This document shows, in pieces, positions 1 to 13,996 of a DNA stretch of 22,373 nucleotides (its first letter is position 1; each line of letters starts with the position of its first letter). The DNA is from a virus: the IMG/VR virus record IMGVR_UViG_3300031774_001351, positions 1 through 22,373 of that record, one strand, 5' to 3'. The translations under genes and the position numbers were made by a program. Below the pieces are notes generated by a model. It was not told the DNA's origin and did not search any database. It saw only the letters and a program-made list of their open reading frames with translations.

Positions 1-75
1 TTTCTAATGGCAATAGTTGTAAATCATAATTACAAAGTATGGCATAAAGCAGAACAAAGATGTATCAAAAGATAA
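1..75 (+). CDS. C-terminal end of an upstream gene (partial)
   Basis: Frame 1 is open from the first base and ends at TAA 73-75, giving about 24 residues with a basic end (KAEQRCIKR). An ATG at 7 lies in the same frame, so a 22-residue mini-ORF is the alternative to a truncated longer gene. The stop lies 16 bases inside the cyclase gene that starts at 60, an overlap of the kind seen elsewhere in this window, which hints at translational coupling. Too little is present to name a family. Confidence 0.35.
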   Translation, partial: FLMAIVVNHNYKVWHKAEQRCIKR

Positions 76-1844
76 TCACAATAGTACTATTTATGGGATT
101 GCTTATCTGGAATCCATACCCTTTTCAAGTTTTAGAACTAAAAACCTTTGATTGGTTTATAATGAATACTGAGCCTGTACAAAATGACAATATTGTAATA
201 GTAGACTTAGACGAAGAATTTATAAAAGATTACAAAGGTTGGCCACTACCTAGAACAGCTTTCGCAGACTTAATAGCAACAACAAGAGCTGTATCAGGAA
301 TAACAGTGCTTATGCCTAATCCCGATATTCGTAATACTGGAAATGACGAAGTATTGGCACTAAGAATGAATTATACACCAACAGTCCTTGCTAGTGCAGC
401 ATCGACACAAGTAACTGGCACTAACCCTCATGTAGGTACTGCCCAGTTAGGAGAGGACCCATTACCATGGCTATATCAATACCCAGGAATTTTACCTACA
501 GAATCTATGCTGGCGTCAAAGGCAAAGGGACTAGGAGTAGTAACCGCTACACCGGAAATAGACGGGGTTACTCGTCGTATTCCCCTAGTCGTAAACGTAG
601 GGTCAAAATTATACCCAAGCTTCGGACTAGAACTCTTAAGAGTAGGAACAGGCGATATAAGTTACCAAATAAAAACAGAAGAACAGGGTTTAGCTTGGGT
701 TAGAGTCCCAACTTATCCTGTAATGAATACAGATGCAAATGGACGTATCTGGTTAAACTGGAACACAAAATTTTACAAACAAACAGCGAAGGAATATCTT
801 AGTAATCCAATTCAAGCTCCCTTCGTTATATTCGGCACGACTGCAGAGGGTGTAACAAACCCTGTGCCGACCCCTGCGGGGGCTAAGTATCCTCATGAGA
901 TACAAGCAAACATTTTACACAACCTTATTCAAGGTACAGCACCTAGTTCACCTACTTGGGCTTCTGCAGCTGAGTATGGAATCGGACTACTTGCCCTCAT
1001 CATTTTAGCACTAGCTACAAGGTCAGTTTGGTTATCGGTACCGAGTTTAGTACTTGTTGTCGGTGGTTCTTCTTATGGAGCCTGGTATGCCTATCAATCT
1101 TCGTATCTCATAGACGCTAGTGGAATCGTAATTATCTGCGTTTTGTTTTGGGCATATCATTCGTTTCTGAGTTTCATATCCGAGTATCGTCAGAAACTTC
1201 GAATCAAACAACAATTCGGCACGTACGTTAGTCCCGACTTGGTTAAAAAACTCCAGGAAGACCCATCATTGCTGAGATTGGGTGGGTCAACAGAACAACT
1301 AACTTTTCTTTTCTCGGATATACGAGGATTTACCCCGATTTCTGAAAAATACCAAAAGAATCCGCAAGGACTTACTGTTCTGATTAATAGATTTTTAGAC
1401 AATCAAACTAAGATAATTCTCAAACATGGGGGAACAATAGACAAATATATGGGAGACTGCATCATGGCATTTTGGGGTGCTCCTCTTCCAGACGAAAACC
1501 ATAAGCAAAATGCAACAGCTGCCTTGATAGAAATGAAAAAGGCATTGGAGGAATTAAATGAAAGATTCAGAGAAGAAGGCCTGGATACGATTAATACGGG
1601 CGCGGGCATCAACACCGGCCTCTGTGTCGTCGGAAACTTTGGAAGTAGCAGTAGGTTTGATTACAGTGTTCTTGGTGATAGCGTCAATCTGGCTGCTAGG
1701 TTAGAATCAAGTTGTAAGAATTACGATGTGGATAATGTCATTTCTGAGCACAGCTTGGTTGATGGCTACGAGTACGACTTTCTTGACGAAGTAACTGTCA
1801 AAGGTAAGTCCGAACCTGTTAAAATCTACACCATACGAAAATAG
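60..1844 (+). CDS. CHASE2-domain class III adenylate cyclase (membrane)
   Basis: Probable membrane adenylate cyclase, ATP to cAMP. An N-terminal TM segment (about 5-20) leads into an extracytoplasmic CHASE2 sensor (about 22-290; LELKTFDWF, IVIVDLDEE, WPLPR). Three TM segments follow (about 304-322, 323-345, 350-372), then a linker and the cyclase domain (about 410-594). This is the standard order for CHASE2 cyclases and the length is normal. Catalytic positions look intact: metal aspartates D420 (FSDIRGFT) and D466 (DKYMGD), base-recognition K462 with S536 at the Thr/Asp position, and transition-state N543 and R547 (VNLAARLES). The Ser leaves ATP versus GTP choice slightly open; ATP is likelier. 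The ATG at 60 has a weak RBS (ACAAAG) and the start overlaps the preceding ORF. Such cyclases are normally bacterial chromosomal genes, so here it is probable acquired host-signalling cargo. A promoter starts just beyond its stop. Confidence 0.93.
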   Translation: MYQKIITIVLFMGLLIWNPYPFQVLELKTFDWFIMNTEPVQNDNIVIVDLDEEFIKDYKGWPLPRTAFADLIATTRAVSGITVLMPNPDIRNTGNDEVLALRMNYTPTVLASAASTQVTGTNPHVGTAQLGEDPLPWLYQYPGILPTESMLASKAKGLGVVTATPEIDGVTRRIPLVVNVGSKLYPSFGLELLRVGTGDISYQIKTEEQGLAWVRVPTYPVMNTDANGRIWLNWNTKFYKQTAKEYLSNPIQAPFVIFGTTAEGVTNPVPTPAGAKYPHEIQANILHNLIQGTAPSSPTWASAAEYGIGLLALIILALATRSVWLSVPSLVLVVGGSSYGAWYAYQSSYLIDASGIVIICVLFWAYHSFLSFISEYRQKLRIKQQFGTYVSPDLVKKLQEDPSLLRLGGSTEQLTFLFSDIRGFTPISEKYQKNPQGLTVLINRFLDNQTKIILKHGGTIDKYMGDCIMAFWGAPLPDENHKQNATAALIEMKKALEELNERFREEGLDTINTGAGINTGLCVVGNFGSSSRFDYSVLGDSVNLAARLESSCKNYDVDNVISEHSLVDGYEYDFLDEVTVKGKSEPVKIYTIRK

Positions 1845-1876
1845 TACTTGACATGAGGTACTAATTTTGATATAAT
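1842..1876 (+). promoter_or_regulatory. Consensus sigma70-type promoter
   Basis: TTGACA (1848-1853), a 17-base spacer and TATAAT (1871-1876) match the bacterial housekeeping consensus perfectly. The predicted start of transcription is near 1883, about 19 bases before the ATG at 1902. The -35 box is flanked by the inverted repeat TAGTAC (1842-1847) and GTACTA (1858-1863), a possible operator. A near copy of the upstream half lies before the HNH gene at 7451-7474. Confidence 0.85.
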
Positions 1877-1901
1877 TATCATGTAGTTAATACAAAAGTT
1901 T

Positions 1902-2138
1902 ATGGAGAAAGCATTGGACTCAGATATACAGAAGAACGCAACAGGCATCATTGACCTAGATAAAAGACTGTCTAGCCACGAGACTATGTGCGAAGAAAGA
2001 TGGAAAACATGCTTCAATCGTTTTGATGACATGGATAAATCTATAGGTAGAATCGAAACTATACTAATAGGAGCATCAGGAAGCTTAATAGCAGGCGGTG
2101 CCATATTAATATTGGCCATGTACAACATACACGTTTAG
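1902..2138 (+). CDS. Small coiled-coil plus one-TM protein (XhlA-like layout)
   Basis: 78 residues. The first 55 are hydrophilic and helical with heptad spacing (DIQKNATGIIDLDKRLSSHE, then FDDMDKSIGRIETI). The end is a single TM helix (about 57-75, GASGSLIAGGAILILAMYNI). This matches the layout of XhlA-type phage lysis accessory proteins, and many phages carry such a protein near holins, but the family match is by layout only. It is the first gene after the 1848-1876 promoter. There is no clear Shine-Dalgarno site and the predicted leader is only about 19 bases, so it may be translated from a nearly leaderless message. Confidence 0.7.
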   Translation: MEKALDSDIQKNATGIIDLDKRLSSHETMCEERWKTCFNRFDDMDKSIGRIETILIGASGSLIAGGAILILAMYNIHV

Positions 2139-2147
2139 GAGAAAACA

Positions 2148-2318
2148 ATGGAATTAGATTATAATAAAAAAGATATATCAAAATCCCCGAAAGCAAAAGC
2201 AGTAGAATACGATATGAGCGTACTGTATTGCAAAAGAGGAATTTGGTACGCTGTTAAAAATGAACAGAAAATGAAGTTCAACAGCAAAGAAGAGGCAATC
2301 AAATGGCTGGAGAAATAA
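2148..2318 (+). CDS. Small hypothetical protein
   Basis: 56 residues from ATG 2148, with a good Shine-Dalgarno site (AGGAG, 2137-2141) just after the previous stop. The middle (SVLYCKRGIWYAV) could form a beta hairpin and the end (FNSKEEAIKWLEK) looks helical, as in small phage proteins that carry a KxFxSxxEAxxWL tail. I do not recognise a family. The next gene begins 16 bases before this stop in another frame. Confidence 0.65.
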   Translation: MELDYNKKDISKSPKAKAVEYDMSVLYCKRGIWYAVKNEQKMKFNSKEEAIKWLEK

Positions 2319-2452
2319 AGAAAGCTTTAGAAGAAGCTGTCGAAAAAGACAATGAAGCACCAGAACTTAATGCTAGAGTCAGAAAACTACTAGCTCGCAA
2401 GAAAAGATTGCAAAGAAAAAACAGACAAAAAATACCACCTTCATTAAAGTGA
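2303..2452 (+). CDS. Small basic hypothetical protein
   Basis: 49 residues from ATG 2303. The first half is acidic to neutral (IKKALEEAVEKDNEAPELN) and the second strongly basic (VRKLLARKKRLQRKNRQK), so the C-terminal half may contact nucleic acid. The start lies within the preceding gene, with GGCTGGAG-rich sequence but no ideal RBS. Its TGA overlaps the GTG start of the next gene (GTGA, 2449-2452), supporting both as real members of a coupled gene string. Function unknown. Confidence 0.55.
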   Translation: MAGEIKKALEEAVEKDNEAPELNARVRKLLARKKRLQRKNRQKIPPSLK

Positions 2453-2610
2453 AGAAGAAACTCAAACATCAAGACAGATTAAAAATATGTCAAGAGTGTC
2501 CAAACTATAGTAAGTTTTGGAAAACTTGTAAAATCTGTATGTGTTTTATGCCCCTCAAGACTAAATTACGATGGGCGGAGTGTCCGGACGAGCCACCTCG
2601 TTGGACTTAG
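2449..2610 (+). CDS. Cys-rich mini-protein (zinc-ribbon-like)
   Basis: 53 residues from GTG 2449, overlapping the previous stop by four bases. Six cysteines fall in the order CxxC (14, 17), CxxCxC (27, 30, 32) and one more at 45, with the motif CKICMCFMPLKTKLRWAECP. I recognise this pattern (CxxCxCFMxxKTxxxxxxCP) from small proteins common in T4-like cyanophages and other marine phages. Their role is unknown; zinc binding is the obvious inference. The GTG start is inferred from the overlap; no other start keeps the whole domain. Confidence 0.75.
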   Translation: MKKKLKHQDRLKICQECPNYSKFWKTCKICMCFMPLKTKLRWAECPDEPPRWT

Positions 2611-2619
2611 GAGATACTT

Positions 2620-2682
2620 ATGCCTTATCATTATGGTAAGAAAAAGAAGAAGAAAAAGTCAAAGGGCAGGAAGAAGAAGTAG
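2620..2682 (+). CDS. 20-residue poly-lysine peptide
   Basis: A tiny gene: ATG 2620 to TAG 2682, MPYHYG followed by seven lysines, SKGR and three lysines. AGGAG (2609-2613) sits six bases before the ATG and overlaps the previous stop, so it is well placed for translation. The sequence is nearly all positive charge after residue 6, suggesting it binds DNA, RNA or another polyanion. I recall similar short MPY..GKKKKK peptides in marine phages, function unknown. Confidence 0.65.
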   Translation: MPYHYGKKKKKKKSKGRKKK

Positions 2683-2806
2683 CACTCAGGAGGTGACAAC
2701 AATCTAGGAGTAGATGACCTTATACTAAAGCGAAAACGCATGAAGTAACAATTCATGACACGGAATAAAAAATGAGGGGTCTCTACTCCGCCTTTTAGGA
2801 GAAAAA
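2683..2806 (+). other. Gap with three small hairpins
   Basis: 124 bases without a convincing gene. It opens with a full Shine-Dalgarno string AGGAGGT (2688-2694) that has no start codon at usable spacing. Three hairpins follow: GCG-AAAA-CGC (2730-2739), CATGAA/TTCATG with a 7-base loop (2739-2757) and GGGGT-CTCT-ACTCC (2776-2789, one G-T pair). Micro-ORFs of 4, 6 and 8 codons occur (ATG at 2714, 2755, 2772), the last ending in the RBS of the next gene. It may be a structured leader or small RNA; no family is recognised. Confidence 0.35.
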
Positions 2807-2938
2807 ATGAAATACTTAAAAATGATATGGAATATCATAACAGGTAAAGATAAGAACTGGGATGGAACAGTTGACATCAAAGACAAGATGATGGCAGCTA
2901 AAGAAAAAACAGAGATTAGTCAATTTAAACCAAAATGA
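2807..2938 (+). CDS. 43-residue protein with an EF-hand-type calcium loop
   Basis: ATG 2807 follows TAGGAG at normal spacing. Residues 15-26, DKNWDGTVDIKD, fit the 12-position EF-hand loop: D1, N3, D5, G6, V8, D9 and acidic D12. The flanks (KMIWNIITGK before, KMMAAKEKTE after) could be the two short helices. A single dockerin/EF-hand-like calcium-binding unit in so short a phage protein is unusual. Its TGA overlaps the next ATG (ATGA, 2935-2938). Role unknown. Confidence 0.7.
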   Translation: MKYLKMIWNIITGKDKNWDGTVDIKDKMMAAKEKTEISQFKPK

Positions 2939-3417
2939 TTAGAACAATAAATCAAGCGTACCGAATGTATAAAAATGTTAGTAGCAGTGGACAGAATGTC
3001 AAAGCTATTAGCTATGAAACTGCATCGGCAAAGCGTAATTTTAATGTTAGTCAAAAGTCGTATGTGATGTACTTTCACAATCATACAGTCACACCTAATT
3101 TTACTACTGAAAAAATAGAAAGTGTAGGAGAAGGTAGCTGGTTCGAAAAAATAAAACATAATTATTGGTGGGGAGCAGATTCTCCACTTCTAACTATTAC
3201 TGTAAGAAATAAACAAGAAGCAACTAAGTTCGAGAATACTCAAAGCAAGTTCGCGGGTTTAACAATTATTACAGTCGACACTATGATGGTGTTTAGACTT
3301 CAACCAGATGATGACGGAAATGTACGATTAGTACGACTTATGAAGAGCCCAGGCTTGCCTTGGTTACGCGGAGATTTAGACTTACTCAAATTAGGTGCAG
3401 TTTGCAATTACACTTAA
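2935..3417 (+). CDS. Hypothetical protein, 160 residues
   Basis: 160 residues, soluble, no TM segment or signal peptide. Polar N-terminal half (MIRTINQAYRMYKNVSSSGQ) followed by beta-rich sequence (SYVMYFHNHTVTPNF, LLTITVRNKQEAT, LTIITVDTMMVFRLQPDDDG) and a hydrophobic end (PGLPWLRGDLDLLKLGAV). I do not recognise a family. It is coupled to the preceding EF-hand-like gene by ATGA and followed by a structured 72-base gap. Placement among small accessory genes rather than head/tail genes gives no clear role. Confidence 0.65.
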   Translation: MIRTINQAYRMYKNVSSSGQNVKAISYETASAKRNFNVSQKSYVMYFHNHTVTPNFTTEKIESVGEGSWFEKIKHNYWWGADSPLLTITVRNKQEATKFENTQSKFAGLTIITVDTMMVFRLQPDDDGNVRLVRLMKSPGLPWLRGDLDLLKLGAVCNYT

Positions 3418-3489
3418 AGTAAGATAAAACGCGCAAGACCTTAAGGTTTTTCGCAAAAGAGTACTTTTTAGTACGCAGGGGAGAAAATT
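3418..3489 (+). other. Intergenic tandem hairpins
   Basis: Two hairpins in a 72-base gap. The first, 3431-3454, pairs GCGCAAGACC with GGTTTTTCGC around a TTAA loop (nine of ten pairs, one G-T). The second, 3461-3474, pairs GTACT with AGTAC around TTTT. Neither is followed by a T-run, so a terminator is not well supported; an RNA processing or stability element is possible. GGGGAG (3478-3483) before the next ATG is the RBS of the following gene. Confidence 0.4.
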
Positions 3490-3666
3490 ATGTTAGAATT
3501 TCTTACATGGTTAGTAGCATGGATTCAATTGATTCCATGGATTGTAGCAGCAGCATCATTGATTGCAGCTCTTACACCTACTCCAGTTGACGATGGACTA
3601 GTCAAGAAAGCATATCATGTGCTTGATTGGTTTGCATTGAATGTTGGTAAAGCAAAAGATAAATAA
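3490..3666 (+). CDS. Small membrane protein, holin-like
   Basis: 58 residues with a hydrophobic first half: an amphipathic/TM stretch with several Trp (about 3-30, WLVAWIQLIPWIVAAASLIA), a TPTPVDDG turn, and an amphipathic second half (KAYHVLDWFALNVGKAK) with a charged end. The TPTPxDDG...ALNxGKAK pattern is one I recall from short membrane proteins of cyanophages and marine phages. A holin-like or membrane-associated role is inferred from topology only. RBS GGGGAG precedes the ATG. Its TAA overlaps the next ATG (TAATG). Confidence 0.72.
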   Translation: MLEFLTWLVAWIQLIPWIVAAASLIAALTPTPVDDGLVKKAYHVLDWFALNVGKAKDK

Positions 3667-3818
3667 TGCCTGTAATTAAGGTTAAACGCGGATACAAATG
3701 GGGTAAATCTGGAAAGGTTTACCCAACCCGCAAACAAGCAGAAAGGCAAGGCAGAGCAGTTTATGCTTCTGGATATAAGAAACGAAATGGCAAAAAGAAG
3801 AAAAAGAAAAGCCGCTAA
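3666..3818 (+). CDS. Small basic phage protein (KWGKSGKVYPTRKQA type)
   Basis: 50 residues, start fixed by the TAATG overlap with the previous gene. The sequence runs KRGYKWGKSGKVYPTRKQAE then QGRAVYASGYKK and a Lys/Arg tail. This is a known small phage motif (GGYKWGKxGKVYPTRxQAxxQGRAIYASGYK) found widely in phage genomes without an assigned function. The net charge is strongly positive, in line with the following genes. Nucleic-acid or capsid-interior binding is inference. It overlaps the start of the next gene by 32 bases. Confidence 0.72.
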   Translation: MPVIKVKRGYKWGKSGKVYPTRKQAERQGRAVYASGYKKRNGKKKKKKSR

Positions 3819-3987
3819 AAAGAGACCTGTACCAACAAATCCAAGTCTCTACGCTAGGATAAAAGCCCAAGCAAAGAGAAAATTTAAGGTATATCCATCA
3901 GCTTATGCTAATGGGTGGCTAGTAAGGACTTACAAAGCCAAAGGTGGTCGGTATCGAATGGGTACTGGTCGTAAGAGGAGAAAGTAA
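3787..3987 (+). CDS. Small basic protein with KVYPSAYANGW module
   Basis: 66 residues if begun at ATG 3787 (MAKRRKRKAAKKR); an in-frame ATG at 3763 would add eight residues, but the later start gives the typical poly-basic N-terminus. Contains PTNPSLYARIKAQAKRKFKV followed by YPSAYANGWLVRTYKAKGG, a module common in marine phages and some large algal viruses, of unknown function, and ends GRKRRK. The 3' end holds GAGGAG six bases before the next start, so these codons also serve as its RBS. Highly basic; nucleic-acid binding likely. Confidence 0.75.
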   Translation: MAKRRKRKAAKKRPVPTNPSLYARIKAQAKRKFKVYPSAYANGWLVRTYKAKGGRYRMGTGRKRRK

Positions 3988-4145
3988 TGCCACGAGGTAA
4001 AGGAACATATGGTAAAAAGAAAGGCCGTCCAATGAAAAAGAAAGCTGGAAGAAAAGGAATGAAACCTTGTTTAACAGCAAAGCAAAAGAAGTTACCAAAA
4101 GCACTTCAAGCTGGTATTCGTAAGAAGAACAGACCTTGTAGATAA
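3987..4145 (+). CDS. Small basic hypothetical protein
   Basis: 52 residues, about 40 percent Lys plus Arg, beginning MPRGKGTYGKKKGRPMKKK and ending KKNRPCR. Two cysteines (28 in MKPCLT and 51 near the end) could pair or bind metal. RBS GAGGAG lies in the end of the previous gene with a 6-base spacer, and both ends are joined to neighbours by TAATG. No family recognised with certainty; MPRGKGTYGKK-type starts recur in small marine-phage proteins. Likely polyanion-binding by charge. Confidence 0.65.
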   Translation: MPRGKGTYGKKKGRPMKKKAGRKGMKPCLTAKQKKLPKALQAGIRKKNRPCR

Positions 4146-4429
4146 TGGCGAAACCAAAAGGCGGACTGACTAAATGGTTCAAAGAAGGATGGGTTGACAT
4201 CTCTCGTAAGAGAAAAGGCGGAGGCTATATGCCTTGTGGTCGTAAGTCAGCAAGAAAAAGTAAAAGAGGATATCCTAAATGTGTTCCTGCTAGCAAAGCC
4301 GCTAGAATGACTAAGTCTCAGATAAGGTCAGCAGTTACAAGAAAAAGAAAAGCAGGTAATCCAGGTGGAAAACCTCGTAATGTTTCCACTTTTGTAAAAA
4401 GAGGTAGAAAGAAAAAAAGGAGTAGATAA
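4145..4429 (+). CDS. Basic protein resembling the DUF5872 family
   Basis: 94 residues. The body GGLTKWFKEGWVDISRKRKG, GYMPCGRKSARKS, GYPKCVPASKAARMT and AGNPGGKPRNVSTFVKRG matches, from memory, a conserved family of unknown function shared by marine phages and large algal viruses (I believe DUF5872; not checked). Two cysteines (about 32 and 47, PCGR and PKCVP) are conserved in that pattern. Strongly basic, ending KKKRSR. The last codons carry AGGAG six bases before the next ATG. The biochemical role is unknown. Confidence 0.8.
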   Translation: MAKPKGGLTKWFKEGWVDISRKRKGGGYMPCGRKSARKSKRGYPKCVPASKAARMTKSQIRSAVTRKRKAGNPGGKPRNVSTFVKRGRKKKRSR

Positions 4430-4626
4430 TGATAAGAAGCCAACTCAAAGAAAAATTCGAAGTTTCGAATGAGCTGAGTGGGATTGAAAGAAAGTTAGCA
4501 GTAAGAATATACGAGCAACGAAAATATCTACAAAAATTAAGTAAATTGAAAGACTACGCAACAATGCGTAAGTGTAACTTTCAGAGGAAACAACTAGAGT
4601 TGTTAAAAGGAGAACTAAATGGCTAA
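4429..4626 (+). CDS. Small helical hypothetical protein
   Basis: 65 residues, mostly helix-forming, charged and probably coiled coil (IERKLAVRIYEQRKYLQKLS, then FQRKQLELLKGEL). Less extreme in charge than its neighbours. AGGAG at 4418-4422 gives a strong RBS with a 6-base spacer inside the previous gene, and TAATG joins the two. Its own end (AAAGGAG) is the RBS for the next gene, whose start overlaps it by eight bases. No family recognised. Confidence 0.62.
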   Translation: MIRSQLKEKFEVSNELSGIERKLAVRIYEQRKYLQKLSKLKDYATMRKCNFQRKQLELLKGELNG

Positions 4627-4882
4627 GTTTTTAAGCGGACCAACTGGTATTCATAATACACAGAAGATTCGAAAACATGTACTCAAAAGGGGTATAACAA
4701 GAGATATGAACTCTGCAGCTGGAACTGTTGTAAACAGTAAAAATGCAGGTAGCTATGAAGCTTTCAGATATGCAGCAGCACCTAAAGCAGTCGGACCAAG
4801 ATATGGCAAGACTCTTAGACCAAAAGCAGCTAGATTCGGAAAGAAAACTTCAGGAAGAATATTACCAAGAAGAGGTAGATAA
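4619..4882 (+). CDS. Small basic hypothetical protein
   Basis: 87 residues starting MAKFLSGPTGIHNTQKIRKH, with a Ala/Gly/Lys/Arg-rich second half (KAVGPRYGKTLRPKAARFGK) and basic end PRRGR. No TM segment. RBS AAGGAG is six bases before the ATG, within the previous gene. The composition looks like a flexible nucleic-acid-binding protein or a minor virion component; I do not recognise the family. Two bases separate it from the oxygenase gene. Confidence 0.65.
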   Translation: MAKFLSGPTGIHNTQKIRKHVLKRGITRDMNSAAGTVVNSKNAGSYEAFRYAAAPKAVGPRYGKTLRPKAARFGKKTSGRILPRRGR

Positions 4883-4884
4883 TA

Positions 4885-5430
4885 ATGATTAGGGTCACAG
4901 ATAATTTTTTGACAAAAGAACAATGTCAAAATATAATAAATAGTTTTCATACTTGGGAAAGAGATAAAATAATTAATGATACCTCTAGACCAGAGAAAAC
5001 TTTCAGTAAAGAACAGTTAGATGCTAATACTGAGATTGACCCTGAAGGTTATAAAATTAGACAAGTATCTCAGTCAGGTACTGATTATATTACAGAATGG
5101 GATGGACTTCCTGTTTACAGATGTAAAGTTATGAAGTATGACGAAGGAGACTTCGTTGAAGAACATAGAGATAGTCTATGGATGTGCCAAAGTAATTATT
5201 GGAAACCAAATACTAATCAAAGAGCAAAAGACTTGATGGTAATACCACTAAATGATGATTATGAAGGTGGAGAGTTTACAGTAAATGGAACAGAAATAAA
5301 ACAAAAGATAGGGTCAGTAATTCAAATGCCACAATCTGGTATTCCAGGATTTAGACCCAGACCTAAGCATGGAGTTAAAGAAGTAACAAAAGGTACTAGA
5401 TACTCTATGGTATTTTGGAACTTTGAATGA
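4885..5430 (+). CDS. 2OG-Fe(II) oxygenase (prolyl 4-hydroxylase type)
   Basis: 181 residues, the usual length for compact phage 2OG-Fe(II) dioxygenases. The double-stranded beta-helix core shows the iron ligands H94 and D96 (EEHRDS) and H162 (PKHGV), and R172 (TRYSMVFW), which would bind 2-oxoglutarate. KVMKYDEGDFVEEHRD and GGEFTVNG are typical of the P4H-like group. It would couple oxidative decarboxylation of 2-oxoglutarate to hydroxylation of a substrate; in phages the substrate is usually unknown (protein or nucleic acid). It lies inside the basic-protein cluster, so those proteins are candidate substrates, as inference. A perfect promoter consensus falls within its first 55 bases, and its TGA overlaps the next ATG. 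Confidence 0.9.
   Translation: MIRVTDNFLTKEQCQNIINSFHTWERDKIINDTSRPEKTFSKEQLDANTEIDPEGYKIRQVSQSGTDYITEWDGLPVYRCKVMKYDEGDFVEEHRDSLWMCQSNYWKPNTNQRAKDLMVIPLNDDYEGGEFTVNGTEIKQKIGSVIQMPQSGIPGFRPRPKHGVKEVTKGTRYSMVFWNFE
4909..4937 (+). promoter_or_regulatory. Possible internal promoter in oxygenase gene
   Basis: TTGACA (4909-4914), a 17-base spacer and TATAAT (4932-4937) match the sigma70 consensus in all 12 positions. It lies in coding sequence for residues 9-18 of the oxygenase, so selection on protein could explain part of it. If active it would transcribe the downstream basic genes and terL but not a full oxygenase. Confidence 0.45.
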
Positions 5431-5576
5431 AAAAAGTAAAAGCGCCTAAAGGATTTCATTGGATGAAGACCAAATCGGGAGTTCGTTTAATGAAACATAA
5501 GGGCAAGTATAAAAAGCATCAAGGGTCTTCGCTGTATCATCAGTTTAAGACTGTAAAAATGCACTCACCACTATAA
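5427..5576 (+). CDS. Small basic protein (PKGFHWM-type)
   Basis: 49 residues, start at the ATGA overlap with the oxygenase stop. The core APKGFHWMKTKSGVRLMKHK followed by KYKKHQG resembles the PKGYHWM..G..LMKG..  mini-proteins I recall from marine phages; function unknown. It is rich in Lys and His (net positive), has no TM segment, and joins the following gene by TAATG. It may be part of the same set of polyanion-binding proteins. Confidence 0.68.
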   Translation: MKKVKAPKGFHWMKTKSGVRLMKHKGKYKKHQGSSLYHQFKTVKMHSPL

Positions 5577-5917
5577 TGGCACTAAGTAAAGCAGAAAAAG
5601 CAAGATTAAAACGGGTTGGACTCTCAGGTTTGAACAAACCAAAAAGAACACCCAAACACAAAACCAAGAAAGCTGTAGTAGCTGTAAGGGTTGGTGGTAG
5701 AATAAAGATAATTAGATTCGGAGCGCAAGGCATGGGTCATAATTATAGCGCAGCAGCAAGGAAGAGTTTTAAAGCTAGACACGGTAGAAATATTCGTAAA
5801 GGTAAATCTTCTGCAGCTTACTGGGCAAATAAAGTCTTCTGGGCAGGAAAGGGCGGTTCTAGTAAAAGACCACCTAGGTCTCAGAAGCATGTTAAAGGTA
5901 TAAAAAGGAGAAGATAA
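5576..5917 (+). CDS. Basic phage protein (IRFGAQG / SFKARH type)
   Basis: 113 residues, strongly basic. After a Lys-rich start it has KAVVAVRVGGRIKIIRFGAQ, then RKSFKARHGRNIRKGKSSAA and YWANKVFWAG, and ends GIKRRR. This FGAxG...RKSFKARHxxNIxKGxxSAAYWANKxxW pattern is widespread in marine phages and algal viruses as a protein of unknown function, which I recognise from memory without accession. The end of the gene contains AAGGAG, placed six bases before the next start. Possible virion or nucleoid protein. Confidence 0.8.
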   Translation: MALSKAEKARLKRVGLSGLNKPKRTPKHKTKKAVVAVRVGGRIKIIRFGAQGMGHNYSAAARKSFKARHGRNIRKGKSSAAYWANKVFWAGKGGSSKRPPRSQKHVKGIKRRR

Positions 5918-6141
5918 TGCAAGAAGTAAGTGGACAAAAGTTATGGCTAGATGAAGCTATGACTCACTCAGAGGGCTTCCTAACAACATTAGTTAACAGG
6001 GAAGGAGAAAGAGATTTATCAACAGCTGAGAAAAATATGAAGCACATCGTTGCGTCTTACTGCTATCTATACCACAAGGCACAAGAACTCGGGTTTCTTG
6101 ATGAGGATTCAGATTTATTTTTTAACGAGAAAATACATTGA
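5917..6141 (+). CDS. Small protein in the small-terminase position
   Basis: 74 residues, mildly acidic, probably all helical (LWLDEAMTHSEGFLTTLVNR, then EKNMKHIVASYCYLYHKAQE). It stands directly before terL and overlaps it by four bases (TTGA), where many phages carry the small terminase. The length is short for TerS and I see no clear HTH DNA-binding motif, so a small-terminase role is inferred from position only. RBS AAGGAG with a 6-base spacer. Confidence 0.55.
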   Translation: MQEVSGQKLWLDEAMTHSEGFLTTLVNREGERDLSTAEKNMKHIVASYCYLYHKAQELGFLDEDSDLFFNEKIH

Positions 6142-7439
6142 TAGAAGTTAGTAGAAAAGATGTAATCTCCGATAGCCTGATGTCTTATCAAGAACAAGCC
6201 AGGTTTATAAAGTTACCTATGGAAGGGTATCTTGACTTATTAGGTATCACACCTAATAGTTCTCAAAATGCAATAATCAATGCAATTAATAATCCTAAAT
6301 ATCGTTTTATATGCGCCGCTGTCTCTCGTAGACAGGGTAAAACTTATATTGCAAATATTATAGGTCAGTTAGTCACTTTAGTACCCAATTGTAATGTACT
6401 TTTAATGTCGCCTAACTACTCATTATCACAAATATCTTTTGACTTACAAAGACAACTAATAAAACATTTTGACTTAGAAGTATTGAGAGATAATGCAAAA
6501 GATAAAGTTATTGAATTAAGTAATCATTCTACTATTCGTATGGGTTCAATCAATCAGGTTGATTCAGTAGTTGGTAGAAGTTATGATTTAATTATCTTTG
6601 ACGAGGCAGCACTTGTGGATGGCAGAGATGCGTTCAATGTAGCACTAAGACCTACACTAGATAAAGAAAACTCAAAAGCACTATTTATATCTACTCCAAG
6701 GGGTAGAAATAATTGGTTTGCTGAGTTCTGGAACAGAGGCTTTTCAGGAGAGTATCCAGAATGGTGTTCAGTTAGAGCAACCTATCATGAAAATCCTCGT
6801 ATATCTGATACTGATATTGAAGAAGCTAAAAAGACTATGTCTGAAGCTGAGTTCAATCAAGAATACATGGCTGACTTTAATGTCTTCGAAGGACAAGTCT
6901 GGGCATTTAATCATCAAGAGTGTGTAGCAGATTTATCAGAAATAGATACAAAAAGAATGGATATATTCGCAGGAATGGACGTAGGTTACAAGGACCCTAC
7001 TGCTTTCTGTGTCATGGCATACGATTGGAACGATGACAAGTTTTATTTACTAGACGAATATTTAAACAGTGAAAGAACAACAGAACAACACGCAGTAGAA
7101 ATAAGAAAACTAATCCATAAATGGAATATTGATTACATTTATATAGATTCTGCAGCTCAACAAACAAGATTTGACTTTGCACAAAACTATGACATTACTA
7201 CTATTAATGCTAAGAAATCAGTACTAGATGGTATAGGTTATGTAGCCGGTATTGTAGATAATGATAAGTTAACTGTACATCAATCTTGCACTGAGTCATT
7301 GTTAAGTTTAGACCAATATCAGTGGGACCCAAATCCTAATTTGATGAAAGAAAAACCTAAACATAGCTATGCCTCTCACATGGCTGATGCGATTCGATAT
7401 GCACTCTACTCGTTTGAGACACATGCCACTACCTTTTAA
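6138..7439 (+). CDS. terL: Large terminase subunit
   Basis: 433 residues. The packaging ATPase has an adaptive Walker A SRRQGKT (63-69), Walker B LIIFDEAA (151-158, catalytic E156) and coupling motif STPRG (185-189). The RNaseH-fold nuclease follows with acidic residues D281 (AGMDVGYKDPTA), D337 (YIYIDSAA) and D417 (HMADAIRYAL). It cuts concatemeric DNA and drives it through the portal. It starts at TTG 6138, overlapping the previous stop by TTGA; the next in-frame ATG (6180) lacks a good RBS, so TTG is favoured. Length is in the normal range. Confidence 0.95.
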   Translation: MIEVSRKDVISDSLMSYQEQARFIKLPMEGYLDLLGITPNSSQNAIINAINNPKYRFICAAVSRRQGKTYIANIIGQLVTLVPNCNVLLMSPNYSLSQISFDLQRQLIKHFDLEVLRDNAKDKVIELSNHSTIRMGSINQVDSVVGRSYDLIIFDEAALVDGRDAFNVALRPTLDKENSKALFISTPRGRNNWFAEFWNRGFSGEYPEWCSVRATYHENPRISDTDIEEAKKTMSEAEFNQEYMADFNVFEGQVWAFNHQECVADLSEIDTKRMDIFAGMDVGYKDPTAFCVMAYDWNDDKFYLLDEYLNSERTTEQHAVEIRKLIHKWNIDYIYIDSAAQQTRFDFAQNYDITTINAKKSVLDGIGYVAGIVDNDKLTVHQSCTESLLSLDQYQWDPNPNLMKEKPKHSYASHMADAIRYALYSFETHATTF

Positions 7440-7450
7440 TAACTCCTTGA

Positions 7451-7490
7451 AAAAATAGTTCTTGACATGAGCTATAAAATTTGTTAAAAT
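7451..7490 (+). promoter_or_regulatory. Promoter before the HNH-portal-capsid genes
   Basis: TTGACA (7462-7467), 17-base spacer, TAAAAT (7485-7490; one change from consensus). The 24 bases 7451-7474 match 1837-1860 at 21 positions, including CTTGACATGAG, well beyond what a shared -35 box requires. Predicted transcription starts near 7497, giving a leader of about 14 bases to ATG 7511. Confidence 0.8.
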
Positions 7491-7510
7491 TCTAATATAC
7501 AAGTAGGTTT

Positions 7511-7885
7511 ATGACTTTAAAAAGAGATTTAGTTAAGTATGTTCGTGACAAAGCCAAGTCGAAATATAAGAAAGAGGCGGAATGTTACATCTGTGGAAGT
7601 ACGGAGAATCTGGACTTTCATCATTTTTATGGATTAACTGAGTTACTAGAATCGTGGATGAAAAATAAAGACATCACGGTTGAAACCGAAGAAGAGATAC
7701 TAGAACTTCGTGAAGTATTTATAAAAGAAAACGAAGATAAAGTTTATAAACAAGCTGTTACATTATGTCATATGCATCACCTAAGATTGCATAACATATA
7801 CGGAAAAAGACCTAAGCTAATAACAGCAAAGAAACAACAACGCTGGGTCGAGATACAAAGGAATAAATATGGCATGGTACGATAG
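7511..7885 (+). CDS. HNH endonuclease family protein
   Basis: 124 residues. Zinc/HNH signature: C25xxC28 (ECYICGS), H37-H38 (LDFHHFYG), then C86xxHH89-90 (TLCHMHHLRLH) and H94. The central SWMKNKDITVETEEEILELR and the end KQQRWVEIQRNKYG match a HNH group I know from marine podo- and siphoviruses. In HK97-like phages a HNH nuclease next to terL assists terminase cutting at cos sites, so a packaging role is likely here, though not shown. It begins a transcription unit just after the 7462-7490 promoter and overlaps the portal gene by 17 bases. Confidence 0.88.
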   Translation: MTLKRDLVKYVRDKAKSKYKKEAECYICGSTENLDFHHFYGLTELLESWMKNKDITVETEEEILELREVFIKENEDKVYKQAVTLCHMHHLRLHNIYGKRPKLITAKKQQRWVEIQRNKYGMVR

Positions 7886-9080
7886 ATTTTTGGGTAGGAC
7901 AGAAGAAAAACAAAATCCTGCTCAATACGTAATATCAAGGGACGAGGGTCTCACGATTGATAGTAGAGAGAATGTTCTCAACTATCGAAATGCCTACGAA
8001 ACATTAGAAATAGTAAACAGGGCAGTCAACATGATAGTGGATGACGCTGCTGAGATACCATTCGATGTGGGAGAAAAGATTCAGGGTATAACACCTATTA
8101 AGAAAGATCTACGAAGAACACGAGTAGACTTATTAATGAACAAAGAACCGAATCCATTTCAAGACATAAGCACATTTAAAAGAAATCTTTTAGTAGACTT
8201 TATGATTGATGGTAACATCTTTGTTTATTTCGATGGTGCACATCTGTACCATCTTCCAGCAGACCATGTTACAATCTATAGTGATGATAAACAATATGTT
8301 GAAAAATATACATATGACCACTCAATAGATTACAGTCCATCAGAAATTATACATATAAAAGAAAACAGTTTTAACTCTATTTATAGAGGAGTTCCTAGAT
8401 TAAAACCTGCTTTAAGAACTATGCAGTTACTTTCAAGCATGAGAAAATTCCAGGATAACTTCTTTAAAAATGGGGCAATACCAGGATTGGTATTAAAATC
8501 ACCTAACACTCTTTCTGAAAAAATCAAAGAAAGAATGTTACAGGCTTGGGTTGCTAGATACAATCCCCAGTCTGGAGGTAGAAGGCCATTGTTTTTAGAC
8601 GGTGGTTTAGAGGTTGAAGACTTAACGGAAATTAACTTTAAGGAATTAGACTTTCAAGAAGGAATAGCTTCAAATGAAAAGATAATTCTTAAAGCTATAG
8701 GTGTTCCACCAATATTGATGGATAGTGGTAATAATGCAAATTTAAGACCTAACCATCGATTATATTATTTAGAAACCATACTACCAATTATTAATAAAAT
8801 TGCGTATGCTTTCGAGAGATACTTCGGTTTCAAACTTGACGAAGATGTAACAGGTATTCCTGCTTTACAGCCCGAGTTAAGAGACCAAGCAGCTTATTAT
8901 GCTACTCTTGTTAACACAGGAATTATGACACCGAACGAAGCAAGGGAGGCATTAAGGCTTGAGCAAATTGAAGGGTTTGATACACCAAGAATTCCTGCGA
9001 ATATCGCAGGTTCAGCCTCAAATCCAGAGGAAGGCGGTAGACCCCAAGAAGGTCCGCCAAGCGAGGAAGAAGAATTATGA
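7869..9080 (+). CDS. Portal protein (HK97 family)
   Basis: 403 residues. HK97-type portal features: an N-terminal stretch with AYETLEIVNRAVNMIVDDAA, RVDLLMNKEPNPFQDISTFK, a YHLPADHVTIY beta section, stem region GVPRLKPALRTMQLLSSMR and FFKNGAIPGLVLKSP, then the FQEGIASNEKIILKAIGVPP clip/core signature. The C-terminus is Pro/Glu-rich and acidic (EEGGRPQEGPPSEEEEL). Forms the dodecameric DNA gate at one capsid vertex. Start ATG 7869 lies 17 bases inside the HNH gene; the stop overlaps the next ATG (ATGA). Confidence 0.93.
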   Translation: MAWYDRFLGRTEEKQNPAQYVISRDEGLTIDSRENVLNYRNAYETLEIVNRAVNMIVDDAAEIPFDVGEKIQGITPIKKDLRRTRVDLLMNKEPNPFQDISTFKRNLLVDFMIDGNIFVYFDGAHLYHLPADHVTIYSDDKQYVEKYTYDHSIDYSPSEIIHIKENSFNSIYRGVPRLKPALRTMQLLSSMRKFQDNFFKNGAIPGLVLKSPNTLSEKIKERMLQAWVARYNPQSGGRRPLFLDGGLEVEDLTEINFKELDFQEGIASNEKIILKAIGVPPILMDSGNNANLRPNHRLYYLETILPIINKIAYAFERYFGFKLDEDVTGIPALQPELRDQAAYYATLVNTGIMTPNEAREALRLEQIEGFDTPRIPANIAGSASNPEEGGRPQEGPPSEEEEL

Positions 9081-9343
9081 CAAAAGATATGATGATAAAG
9101 GGTTTATCCGAGTTCATAGCCAGCAAAGGCGTTGACACTATGGATTTAAAAACCTATAAAAGTTTTGGCAACGATGTACCTGTGAAGGACTATCTTTTAA
9201 AAAGATATTTTGGTTCATGGAACAGAGTATTATCAGTTGTTAAGAAAAGATATCCTATCTCGGTAGCACCTGTTGAAGTAAAGGTTGAAAAACCTGCACC
9301 TAAACCAAAAGCTAAAAAAGAGGTAAAAGATGTCAAAAAGTAA
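9077..9343 (+). CDS. Small protein with HNH-associated-repeat-like domain
   Basis: 88 residues. Residues about 5-59 (SEFIASKGVDTMDLKTYKSF, VKDYLLKRYFGSWNRVLSVV) resemble the short helical repeat that accompanies homing/HNH nucleases, with its FGSWNxxL signature; I see only one repeat. The C-terminus is Pro/Lys-rich (VEKPAPKPKAKKEVKDVKK), probably disordered. No nuclease motif is present. Between portal and capsid genes, it may be a DNA-binding accessory, head decoration or packaging factor; position and the repeat are all that support this. It overlaps the capsid gene by 14 bases. Confidence 0.65.
   Translation: MTKDMMIKGLSEFIASKGVDTMDLKTYKSFGNDVPVKDYLLKRYFGSWNRVLSVVKKRYPISVAPVEVKVEKPAPKPKAKKEVKDVKK
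9132..9160 (+). promoter_or_regulatory. Possible internal promoter before the capsid gene
   Basis: TTGACA (9132-9137), 17-base spacer, TATAAA (9155-9160), one change from consensus, inside the small gene that precedes the capsid fusion. Location about 170 bases ahead of the capsid gene would fit a need for high capsid expression, but coding constraint and AT-rich sequence make chance plausible. Confidence 0.35.
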
Positions 9344-11387
9344 CGAAAAGATATATCAATGGACTAGCACTTTTAAATCATTAGGTGAAACTGATGATGG
9401 AGGAGTTAATATCAAAGGGTCTGCAAGTACAAACGGACTAGATAGAGCTGGAGATATTATTGAATCAGAAGCATGGATGAAAGGTGGATTGGATAACTAT
9501 AAAGGTAACCCAATTATTCTTTTTAATCATGACTACAATAAACCAATTGGCAGAGCAAGTGGTTTAGAAGTAACCGATAAAGGCTTAGAGATAACTGCAA
9601 AGATATCTAAAGCTGCCGGCGATGTAACTCAATTAGTTAAAGACGGAGTCCTTGGAGCATTTTCTGTTGGTTTCAGATGCAAGGATTCAGAATATATGAC
9701 TGAAACTGACGGATATAAAATAAAGGACGCGGAACTTTTTGAAGTTTCTGTAGTATCAGTGCCTTGCAACCAGGGGGCAACCTTTGGCTTAGCAAAGTCA
9801 TTTGATAGTATGGCGGATTACAGAAAGTACCAAAGTGAATTTTTACAGGCTAACTCAAACGCGACAGCAGACGCTGTTAAAATTGAGCAGCCAAGCGAGG
9901 AGAAATCCTCATCAACGGAGACTGATATGTCAGAAGATAAAAAATCTCCTGAAGTAGCTTTTGACCTTGAATCATTTGCGAAAGATGTAGCAGAAAAAAC
10001 TGCAACAACTATTGCTATGAAACAAGCGGAGCAAAAAGCAGCCGACCAAAAAGCAGAAGCCGAGCATGCTGAAAAGCAAGCAGAAGTAGAAGCTAACGAA
10101 AAGGTTGCTCAAGAAGCAAAACAGGAAGAGCAAAAAACAGTTATCGAAGCTGGATTATCAGGCGCTGAGAGACTCATGAACGACGTAGAGAAACGAGTTT
10201 CTGAAAAGCATGAAGACTTAAAAACAGTTGTAGACTCATTAGAGCAACAACTAGCTGAGAAATCAGAAGAAATCATGTCAATCAGAGAATCAAAAAGAAT
10301 CTTTGCGGACAGAAATGGTCAAGGCGACTGGAAAAAAGCTTTCGAAAACGACATCATTGATGCAAAATTTGCTGGTTTAGCGACTGGTAAAGGATGGAAC
10401 AATGATTATGCGAAAAACGTTATGGAAAAAGCTAACGCCATGAGTGGTGTTGGAGTTTCTTCAGACGATTTTGAGCAGATTGTTTCAACAAACATCGAAA
10501 GAGATATTCAGAACGAATTAGTATTAGCCCCTCTATTTAGAGAAATACCAATGACTTCTGCTAACATGATTATCCCAATATTACCAGATAGTGGTTATGC
10601 CGAATTTACAGGCAACCAAGCTGCTACAGGTTCAAGCCCACACGGTAACTTAGCCCAAACAGGCGATACTTACGGCTCACCATACGGTGGTATTGATTTA
10701 ACAGAAAGAACTCTTTCAACCAAAAAACTCATTTCACAATCATACTTAGGTAATGAAACTGAAGAAGATGCAATTATGCCAATCTTACCTCTCATCAGAG
10801 AATCAATGGTAAGGTCTCATGCAAGAGCTATTGAAAATAGTATCCTAGCAGGTGACGACGCTGACGGCGCATTTGGTACTGGTGGAGCTTCATTCGAAGG
10901 TCTACTACACTTAGCTAGAAATGACAGTGACTTTACACAGTCAGGAACAGCTTTCGCAACAGACACAGTTACAGCAGCTGAGTTACTTTCAATGAGAAAG
11001 AATATGGGCAAATACGGTGTTAACCCTTCAGAAGTGGTTTATATCGTATCTCAAAGAACTTACTTTGAATTGCTAGAAGACGCTGAGTTCCAAGATGCTA
11101 ACCTAGTTGGCGACATGGCTACTAAGCTAAACGGTGAAATTGGTCAAGTATTCGGTTCAAGAGTACTATTATGTGACGAATTTGCTACACCAGCAGTTAG
11201 TAAGTTTGCAGCAATCGCTGTATACCCAAGAAACTATGTAATACCAAGATTAAGAGGTGTTACTATTGAGTCAGACTACGAAGTAGCTAATCAAAGAAGA
11301 GTCCTAGTGGCTTCTCAAAGAATTGGCTTCACCGACCTAATCGACGGTGCAACTTCTAAGTGGGGACACATGTACAAAGCTTCTTAA
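9330..11387 (+). CDS. Fused prohead protease-scaffold-major capsid protein (HK97 fold)
   Basis: 685 residues in three parts. Residues about 1-160 form an HK97-type (U35/S78) prohead protease: H67 (LFNHDYNKPIG), S112 (GAFSVGF) and acidic E138 before VSVVSVPCN are the likely catalytic residues. About 200-330 is a Lys/Glu/Ala coiled coil that would act as the scaffold delta domain. About 340-685 is the HK97 major capsid protein (APLFREIPMTSANMIIPILP, DLTERTLSTKKLISQSYLG, VYPRNYVIPRLRG). Most HK97-like phages encode protease and capsid separately. An internal ATG with its own RBS at codon 200 sits at the junction. RBS GAGGT is before the start; a hairpin terminator follows the stop. Confidence 0.93.
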   Translation: MSKSNEKIYQWTSTFKSLGETDDGGVNIKGSASTNGLDRAGDIIESEAWMKGGLDNYKGNPIILFNHDYNKPIGRASGLEVTDKGLEITAKISKAAGDVTQLVKDGVLGAFSVGFRCKDSEYMTETDGYKIKDAELFEVSVVSVPCNQGATFGLAKSFDSMADYRKYQSEFLQANSNATADAVKIEQPSEEKSSSTETDMSEDKKSPEVAFDLESFAKDVAEKTATTIAMKQAEQKAADQKAEAEHAEKQAEVEANEKVAQEAKQEEQKTVIEAGLSGAERLMNDVEKRVSEKHEDLKTVVDSLEQQLAEKSEEIMSIRESKRIFADRNGQGDWKKAFENDIIDAKFAGLATGKGWNNDYAKNVMEKANAMSGVGVSSDDFEQIVSTNIERDIQNELVLAPLFREIPMTSANMIIPILPDSGYAEFTGNQAATGSSPHGNLAQTGDTYGSPYGGIDLTERTLSTKKLISQSYLGNETEEDAIMPILPLIRESMVRSHARAIENSILAGDDADGAFGTGGASFEGLLHLARNDSDFTQSGTAFATDTVTAAELLSMRKNMGKYGVNPSEVVYIVSQRTYFELLEDAEFQDANLVGDMATKLNGEIGQVFGSRVLLCDEFATPAVSKFAAIAVYPRNYVIPRLRGVTIESDYEVANQRRVLVASQRIGFTDLIDGATSKWGHMYKAS
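9897..9910 (+). promoter_or_regulatory. GNRA-loop hairpin upstream of internal start
   Basis: GAGGA-GAAA-TCCTC is a perfect 5-base-pair stem closed by a GAAA tetraloop, ending 16 bases before the internal ATG at 9927. It would hide the GAGGAG string at 9897-9902 and leave GGAG (9917-9920) as the exposed RBS. Confidence 0.5.
9917..11387 (+). promoter_or_regulatory. Internal RBS and start giving a capsid-only product
   Basis: GGAG (9917-9920), six bases, then ATG 9927 in frame with the long gene. Translation here would yield a 486-residue scaffold-capsid protein starting MSEDKKSPEV, without the protease. The position exactly at the linker between protease and scaffold, with ideal RBS spacing, supports use. 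It would let the phage make many capsid subunits per protease. Not proven; an in-frame Met after GGAG could be chance. Confidence 0.55.
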
Positions 11388-11403
11388 TAGCTTTACAGGT
11401 TTT

Positions 11404-11432
11404 TGGTGGTTTACCTATAAATCACCACTTTT
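11404..11432 (+). terminator. Hairpin terminator after capsid gene
   Basis: TGGTGGTTTA (11404-11413) pairs with TAAATCACCA (11418-11427) around CCTA, ten pairs including one G-T, followed by CTTTT (11428-11432). It lies between the capsid stop and the next ATG at 11439. Likely partial, since no promoter is seen for the next genes. Confidence 0.7.
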
Positions 11433-11438
11433 AATATT

Positions 11439-12035
11439 ATGGCAGATTTAATAACAGTAAATGAATACAAGGATGCGGAAGGTCTTCGAGGCGAGAAGGA
11501 TGATGACCGTCTAAATGTTATTGTACCACAAATTTCAGACTTAGTAAAGAAATATTGCGGTATATCATTTGTTGACTACTATAGTACAAATAAAGTTGAA
11601 ACTTTCTCAATAGATGATACGTACACATCAACGATAATAGTCAGCGAGAGTCCGTTAGTCGAAGTGAGTAAAGTAGAAGAAAGAACAAGTTATTCTGGAG
11701 CTTATACAGAATTAACTACAGGAAACTATGAATACTATGTAGACTTAGAAGCCGATGCAATTATAAGAACAAATGCAGAGGGCAAGCCACTACCATTTAA
11801 ACAAGGAGTTGGAGCAGTAAAAGTAACATACAAAGCAGGATATAGTACTACGCCAAAAGATTTACAACTTGCATTATTTGATTTAGTTAATTACTATATG
11901 AAAGATGAGCATAAAGAAAGAAGAACACTTGGCGGAGCAACTTTACAAAATCAAGGTACTGCAGGAATTAGAACTTCCACAGACTTTCCAGACCACATCA
12001 AAAGGGTACTGGATTTGTATAGAGTTGTGATTTAA
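11439..12035 (+). CDS. Head-tail connector (gp6-like)
   Basis: 198 residues. Helical N-terminus (VNEYKDAEGLRGEKDDDRLN, VIVPQISDLVKKYCGI), a beta section in the middle (VETFSIDDTYTSTIIVSESP, VSKVEERTS), and a helical end (PKDLQLALFDLVNYYMKDE, HIKRVLDLYRVV). This is the pattern of HK97 gp6-like head-tail connectors (QLALFDLVxYYxKDE is typical), which sit on the portal and begin the neck. The ATG comes only seven bases after the terminator T-run and has no Shine-Dalgarno site, so its translation may be weak or leader-dependent. TAATG overlap joins it to the next gene. Confidence 0.8.
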   Translation: MADLITVNEYKDAEGLRGEKDDDRLNVIVPQISDLVKKYCGISFVDYYSTNKVETFSIDDTYTSTIIVSESPLVEVSKVEERTSYSGAYTELTTGNYEYYVDLEADAIIRTNAEGKPLPFKQGVGAVKVTYKAGYSTTPKDLQLALFDLVNYYMKDEHKERRTLGGATLQNQGTAGIRTSTDFPDHIKRVLDLYRVVI

Positions 12036-13522
12036 TGGCAATAAAACAATTAAAAAAAGAAATAATAAAAATATGTACTGACGCTAATAATAAAACAAGA
12101 GCAGAATTAAGTAAACACAAAATTGAAGCTTATGTATACAATAGAAAGTACATTAAAGAGTGGGCTAGATATAGCTGTGAGTATTTAGGACTAGAAAAGA
12201 AAGGCAATTACATAAATGGTATGGTAAAAGCATTTTTAGACTCAACTGAACAAAGTTTTAAAACAAGTAATGAGCCTTTTCATGTTAGTAGATTTAAAAA
12301 AGAATTAACAGTAGTAAAAGTAGATAGAACAACTGCAAGTAGAGAATCAGGCTCTAGTAGTAGAGAAAAGAAAGCTACTGGTGCAGGAAAAGAAGCAGCT
12401 TTAAAATCTCTAGAACAGGCAGCTGGTGTTTCTATTTTAAGTGGACATAGAACAAGGCTAAAAACAGGTATGCACGGACACCATGGTGGACCTCTAACAT
12501 CTGACCCTAAAACTACTTTAGGTATGGAATCAGTTAGAGATAATATGCCACGAAGTGATTCAGGTTTAGGAGATTTGATTGATAGTTTAAATCAAAGAAC
12601 TCCTGCAGACACTTTAAGAGATGTTGTAGTAGGTTTATTTAGTGATGTTATTGATGCTGAAATGCAATTACATAACTTACCAAATCAAGTAATGGCAACT
12701 AGGAATATAAGAACTCCTAACCCTGTAACAAAAAAGTATGTATTAACTAGAGCAATCCAAGTAAAATTTGCACTAGGCTCAGGTAGTACTGCAAAAGGAC
12801 AAGCCTATACCAAGGCTATGAAAGAATGGGACGAAGGAAGAGGAGGCAAACTAGCTAAGAAAATTGAAAGTATTTTGGCAGATGTTGAAAATAAAATAAA
12901 TAGTTTTATAATTAAACACATGGCATCAAACTCTTATAATCAATTAATGATAGGAGCTAGTCCAGGTATAATAGATAATGTACTAGTAGAAACTCCTAAG
13001 TTGTTAGTAAAAAGTATTTTTCCTCATAAAAGTAACCCTGATATGAGATTAAAAGTTAATAAAGCTTTATTTAAGAAAATGGCAACACCTAAAAAAGCTA
13101 GTAGTGGATTTCAAAAACCTAAAAAGAAGAAAGGTGGAAGAGTAAAACTTATTAGAAGAAATGGATTACCACCAATAGGAGGCAATATTAGAACAGATGC
13201 ATTAGGAACAAATCCTATAGCATTAAGAAATTTGTTAAATGATATTTTACCTCAGGCAATAGCCCAAAATATGACATCTCCAGCACTTAGATTTAGAACA
13301 GGGAGATTTGCAAACTCAGTAAGAGTTTCAAATGTAACACAAGGACCAAGAGGAGGGAATACAATGATAGAAACAACTTATCGACAAGACCCTTATGAAA
13401 CTTTTGCTCCAGGGGGTAAAAAATATACTTACCAAAGAGACCCCGAAAGACTAATAAAGAAAACGGTAAGACAAGTAGCAACAGGTATGATTGGTACTAG
13501 ATTCGGTGTAGGAGTCAACTAA
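12035..13522 (+). CDS. Large neck-region structural protein
   Basis: 495 residues. The N-terminal 90 residues are helical and basic; 100-175 are Ser/Gly/His-rich (SGHRTRLKTGMHGHHGGPLT); 180-345 are mainly helical; 350-378 form a Lys-rich linker (KKASSGFQKPKKKKGGRVK). The last 95 residues (LNDILPQAIAQNMTSPALRF, RTGRFANSVRVS, ending TRFGVGVN) resemble the HK97 gp10-like head-tail joining/tail-completion fold (RTGxLxxSVxV). Position between connector and tail terminator supports a neck role. It is much longer than a usual gp10 family member (about 100-150), so a fusion or N-terminal extension is likely. No enzyme motif is seen. Confidence 0.62.
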   Translation: MAIKQLKKEIIKICTDANNKTRAELSKHKIEAYVYNRKYIKEWARYSCEYLGLEKKGNYINGMVKAFLDSTEQSFKTSNEPFHVSRFKKELTVVKVDRTTASRESGSSSREKKATGAGKEAALKSLEQAAGVSILSGHRTRLKTGMHGHHGGPLTSDPKTTLGMESVRDNMPRSDSGLGDLIDSLNQRTPADTLRDVVVGLFSDVIDAEMQLHNLPNQVMATRNIRTPNPVTKKYVLTRAIQVKFALGSGSTAKGQAYTKAMKEWDEGRGGKLAKKIESILADVENKINSFIIKHMASNSYNQLMIGASPGIIDNVLVETPKLLVKSIFPHKSNPDMRLKVNKALFKKMATPKKASSGFQKPKKKKGGRVKLIRRNGLPPIGGNIRTDALGTNPIALRNLLNDILPQAIAQNMTSPALRFRTGRFANSVRVSNVTQGPRGGNTMIETTYRQDPYETFAPGGKKYTYQRDPERLIKKTVRQVATGMIGTRFGVGVN

Positions 13523-13983: not shown

Positions 13984-13996
13984 TTAGGAGAATAAA

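Follow-up and report, generated by a model that had tools for sequence, protein, structure and literature searches.

A CHASE2-class III cyclase gene in an uncultured T5-like phage lineage and its coupling to curli secretion genes in related viruses

The stretch of DNA analysed here, from an uncultured marine phage (the window, a linear IMG/VR record of 22,373 bases, probably a fragment) carries close to its left end a gene for a CHASE2 receptor cyclase. Since in its relatives the cyclase ends, wherever the flank is long enough, a set of genes for surface-fibre export, it is a genuine phage gene, and within the samples drawn its coupling to this cassette in phages is near-obligate. Our preferred but tentative reading, to which we give close to an even chance, is that the cyclase would be the signalling part of a phage-borne secretion cassette, a FecR/CHASE2 sensor raising cAMP in the infected cell, where the host would read it. 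In place of a stray phage sensor there is now a unit that can be tested, in which the phage cyclase goes together with FecR and an export machine. The features at the left end of the window are:

1..75, + strand: C-terminal end of an upstream open reading frame (FLMAIVVNHNYKVWHKAEQRCIKR, then the stop), overlapping the cyclase start
60..1844, + strand: CHASE2-class III cyclase gene, 594 amino acids, ATG start according to the open reading frame list, family phrog_35576
81..1001, + strand: CHASE2 extracytoplasmic sensor domain, amino acids 8-314 (Pfam PF05226, E 3.4e-34)
954..1184, + strand: transmembrane helices after CHASE2, amino acids ~299-375 (hydropathy and AlphaFold2 model)
1287..1835, + strand: class III cyclase catalytic domain, amino acids 410-592 (Pfam Guanylate_cyc, E 3.6e-19)
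1317-1319, 1443-1445 and 1455-1457, + strand: codons of D420, K462 and D466
1665-1667, 1686-1688 and 1698-1700, + strand: codons of S536, N543 and R547
1902..2138, + strand: 78 amino acid coiled-coil protein with one C-terminal transmembrane segment, holin-like in shape only

The first-pass annotation had described the open reading frame 60-1844 as a full-length CHASE2 and class III cyclase protein, and both its coordinates and its two Pfam domains are as claimed. In a profile search the phage family phrog_35576 matches the protein over its full length (E 1.4e-161), while a search of NCBIfam returned no informative family. According to hydropathy and an AlphaFold2 model (mean pLDDT 89.2), an N-terminal helix is followed by a large extracytoplasmic domain, then by more membrane helices and the cyclase in the cytosol. 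The CHASE2 domain thus lies N-terminal to transmembrane helices and an output domain, the arrangement of a CHASE2 receptor cyclase.

The residue set of class III adenylate cyclases, composed of two metal-binding aspartates, the base-binding lysine and the transition-state asparagine and arginine, is complete. The catalytic residues, reported as intact at first pass, hold up across the aligned full-length viral homologues: D420, K462, D466 and R547 occur unchanged in 71/71, N543 and S536 in 70/71. The sequence with both of the latter changed in the displayed alignment is that of the phage Melnitz (L083, 7971-9794). Unlike the other displayed phages it carries Asp in place of S536 and Ser in place of N543, so that in at least this phage the enzyme may be weak or altered. 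The dN/dS of the cyclase, at 0.07-0.19, is far from neutral; the gene is under purifying selection, and its catalytic residues are essentially invariant. Judged by these residues, the cyclase of the window is very probably catalytic. ATP is its likely substrate and cAMP its likely product, as had been suggested earlier, in view of K462, a position held by Lys in adenylyl cyclases versus Glu in the guanylyl cyclase Cya2.

The best solved homologue by sequence is the catalytic domain of Pseudomonas aeruginosa CyaB (3r5g, E 1.9e-38), which also matches the cyclase model in fold (TMt 0.86-0.87). The match is limited to the catalytic domain, and at the base position CyaB has Thr where the window has Ser (S536). 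Among the best 50 matches of the fold search there was no CHASE2 entry, and the matches displayed were cyclase structures. The catalytic domain also matches the PADLOC PycC models, with a best E of 4.1e-29, as would be expected if the enzyme made another cyclic nucleotide (cGMP, cCMP or cUMP) for Pycsar-like defence or counter-defence. The best of these matches, however, spans only the shared class III domain (amino acids 412-550), K462 is as in adenylyl cyclases, and no Pycsar effector adjoins the cyclase in the window or the relatives inspected, where the neighbours are phage or curli genes; we consider such a role highly improbable.

The phage genes elsewhere in the window encode a terminase, a portal, a protease-capsid fusion, a tail terminator, a major tail protein and a tape measure. 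Three of them have the following coordinates:

6138..7439, + strand: terminase large subunit, which ties the cyclase gene to a T5-like phage
7869..9080, + strand: portal protein
9330..11387, + strand: head protease-major capsid fusion

Identity to T5-like phages is about 49% for the terminase, 40% for the portal and 31% for the major tail protein. As these three proteins are nearest to those of T5-like phages, the window is assigned to an uncultured T5-like siphophage lineage, on its genes alone and with morphology not seen. A scan of viral contigs for the cyclase gave at least 599 encoding stretches, of which the best 80 were kept as IMG/VR relatives. Within these 80 the terminase lies downstream of the cyclase in 43/43 relatives long enough and on the cyclase strand in all 76 showing a terminase; the portal (31/31) and the capsid (27/27) are likewise downstream wherever there is enough sequence. 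A chimeric contig or a host flank at the left end, two circumstances named at first pass as fatal to a phage-carried cyclase, are ruled out by this synteny. Cyclase distances furthermore track terminase distances (r 0.69, 0/999 permutations, n=46), which argues for long co-inheritance. A gene for a 2OG-Fe(II) oxygenase (E 9.1e-8) is present at 4885-5430 of the window.

The window begins 59 bases ahead of the cyclase start, and the cassette itself would lie outside it. The gene order in the relatives is a holin-like protein, CsgF, CsgG, curlin, FecR, often a second curlin or small protein, and the cyclase. We infer from these relatives that the phage of the window would carry the CsgF-CsgG-curlin-FecR cassette, the window starting just after it, and the open reading frame ending at 1..75 is taken as the gene found between FecR and cyclase in L002, L003 and L034. 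Upstream of the cyclase in those of the best 80 relatives with enough flank are FecR (46/46), curlin (35/35), CsgG (29/29) and CsgF (27/27). The T5-like, T4-like and unclassified viral loci together, among the matches listed, give 99/99 for FecR, 80/80 for CsgG and 77/77 for CsgF. De-duplication left at least 234 distinct viral cyclase genes; again among the matches listed, FecR was upstream in 104/104 testable cases, CsgG in 88/89 and CsgF in 86/87, with gene order and strand identical in 114/114. The reverse test, starting from CsgG, found the cyclase in 19/19 of the listed viral csgG loci with room downstream. Because these samples were picked by similarity to the cyclase or to CsgG, they may overlook rare uncoupled forms, and the numbers hold for this clade rather than for phage cyclases at large. 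FecR sequences from the phage cassette end in a curlin-like tail, [IVLM]x[IVLM]xQ, in 134/138 cases. CsgG distances correlate weakly with those of the cyclase (r 0.28) and of the terminase (r 0.21) in L003, L034 and other T5-like loci, which suggests more frequent exchange of the upstream part than of the cyclase.

The cyclase is not an isolated accessory sensor, as initially described, since in the relatives it is the last gene of the CsgF-CsgG-curlin-FecR-cyclase cassette. These data also bear on its interpretation as a stand-alone auxiliary metabolic gene, by which host cAMP would be raised so as to direct carbon use via CRP-type regulation, independently of the secretion genes. An intact active site would fit such host-directed cAMP, as would the search for cNMP-binding proteins (PF00027), which found none in 40 phage records (29 and 11; many fragments, and the complete HTVC008M and Melnitz). 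Against it, the cyclase is linked strictly, and in both directions of testing, to FecR and an export machine across several groups of phages, it was never found alone among the matches listed, and for host carbon use in particular nothing was found in its favour, the genomic company pointing to secretion-linked signalling. We regard the stand-alone function as improbable.

In a tree of 59 rows the cyclases of the phage cassette, with that of the window among them, group in a single clade, separate from the 27 bacterial cyclases sampled (support 100). The T5-like cyclases are one side of a branch with support 99, which drops to 50 in a second tree adding L364, L371 and the long-branched L355. 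CHASE2 cyclases are common on chromosomes, and the phage gene might be a recent host-derived passenger without function in the phage. This possibility is scarcely credible: the depth of the phage clade and the selection on the gene already contradict it, and the tracking of terminase distances likewise speaks against it. The chromosomal CHASE2 cyclases (Alphaproteobacteria, SAR86) share the domain architecture and are 31-41% identical to the cyclase of the window; they differ in that no adjoining curli genes were found beside them except in L084. This Caulobacteraceae MAG contig carries csgF-csgG-curlin-curlin-FecR-cyclase at 5965-12022 between bacterial-looking flanking genes, and its cyclase falls inside the phage clade. 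L084 was first read as a bacterial donor operon; the tree nests its cyclase with the T4-like phage sequences L268 and L269, so that transfer may have run in either direction. csgF was rare among the Alphaproteobacteria sampled (7/385 at E <= 0.001), at the other alphaproteobacterial csgF loci, L183-L187, neither a cyclase nor a FecR match adjoined csgG, and among 249 genomes of the order of L084 a full-length match to the curli-type FecR was found only in that of L084.

For podo- and myo-pelagiphages, a curli (T8SS) cluster has been described in which a histidine kinase is found along with FecR and an adenylate cyclase (PMC9599517, 2022). The clusters of HTVC008M and Melnitz have the same CsgF-CsgG-curlin-FecR-(curlin)-cyclase order as the relatives of the window, and their cyclases are 36-38% identical to that of the window over 98-99% of its length. 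In view of these homologues and that report, CHASE2 cyclases as such were already known from phages. The pelagiphage clusters differ from the present case in their carrier, which is here a lineage of T5-like siphophages for which the collection searched gave no close cultured relative, and in that the cassette is known here from the relatives of the window, where IscU/IscA-like genes often precede it. What is new is the uncultured T5-like lineage, which joins the myo- and podo-pelagiphages already published as carriers, the type I secretion version of the system in phages, and the near-obligate coupling. The words "holin" and "type I secretion" are absent from the main text of PMC9599517, and a search on CHASE2 with type I secretion found no paper in the literature collection used.

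The type I variant is found in L364, a 172 kb viral contig without csgF and csgG, which is the sole CsgG exception among the matches listed. Its region 86-9794 encodes a 1471 amino acid FecR-cadherin-RTX exoprotein, a TolC-like OEP, HlyD and then a CHASE2 cyclase. A second contig, L371, begins in an HlyD-like gene followed by the cyclase, and in the second tree these two cyclases form their own clade (support 96). On chromosomes, FecR proteins, mostly long exoproteins, are near 21/79 CHASE2-cyclase loci, and HlyD-like genes near 33/79, mostly at two tight distances of about -260 bp and about -3 kb. In Campylobacterota, genes for FecR, a phosphodiesterase and TPR proteins lie clustered with those of CHASE2 cyclases (PMC9239204); the CHASE2 cyclase beside a FecR-domain gene is the likeness to the phage cassette, while this cluster is chromosomal and curli genes are unmentioned in the passage concerned. 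Taken together, L364, L371 and the chromosomal neighbours point to a shared element in which an exported FecR protein and a CHASE2 cyclase accompany an export machine. That chromosomal CHASE2 cyclases are also tied to secretion leads to a concrete hypothesis on the signal sensed by CHASE2 domains. A wider generalisation, by which marine phages of several kinds would use an exported FecR protein and a CHASE2 cyclase on a T8SS or type I machine as a general secretion-state sensor, with cAMP timing the end of infection, is speculative and in our opinion doubtful.

For the preferred reading of the cyclase as the signalling part of the cassette, the following sequence of events may be envisaged. 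The CHASE2 domain would face the periplasm and sense there which state FecR is in, and hence fibre export through CsgG; contact between FecR and CHASE2 is suggested by gene neighbourhood only. Sensing by CHASE2 would gate the cytosolic adenylate cyclase. That CHASE2 can gate activity follows from Sinorhizobium meliloti CyaD1, which makes cAMP constitutively without its CHASE2 domain (PMC5498481). Since no cNMP receptor was recognisable in the 40 phage records, cAMP would act through a host receptor, and the signal may time or tune events late in infection such as export, changes of envelope state or lysis. We count L364 in favour of the secretion-linked reading, as it keeps the sensor logic with another export machine.

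For Melnitz a pinholin or secretin role of CsgGF has been proposed (PMC9004378). Another paper has put forward sibling capture (PMC7029224). The pinholin or secretin proposal can be extended to a lysis-timing module, in which a holin-like protein, the CsgG/F pore and the cyclase set the moment of lysis. In line with this, a small transmembrane or coiled-coil protein is found just 5' of csgF in 110/131 viral loci, and the 78 amino acid protein encoded at 1902-2138 of the window is matched 3' of the cyclase in 74 of the best 80 T5-like relatives. In L355, a further phage type with a very divergent cyclase on a very long branch, the curli-cyclase cassette (8204-14842) is followed immediately by genes for an Rz-like spanin and an endolysin. 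The assignment as a holin is weak, however, being based for the upstream protein on a profile match to phrog_4898 at E 6.8e-4, no endolysin was seen beside the cassette in T5-like or T4-like loci, and the conserved curlin and FecR are unneeded for lysis. We therefore hold a lysis-timing module to be unlikely, though still worth considering.

Just 5' of the curli cassette, IscU-like and IscA-like iron-sulphur genes are present in 16-17/22 loci with room for them, as at 4504-5530 of L034 and in its relatives.
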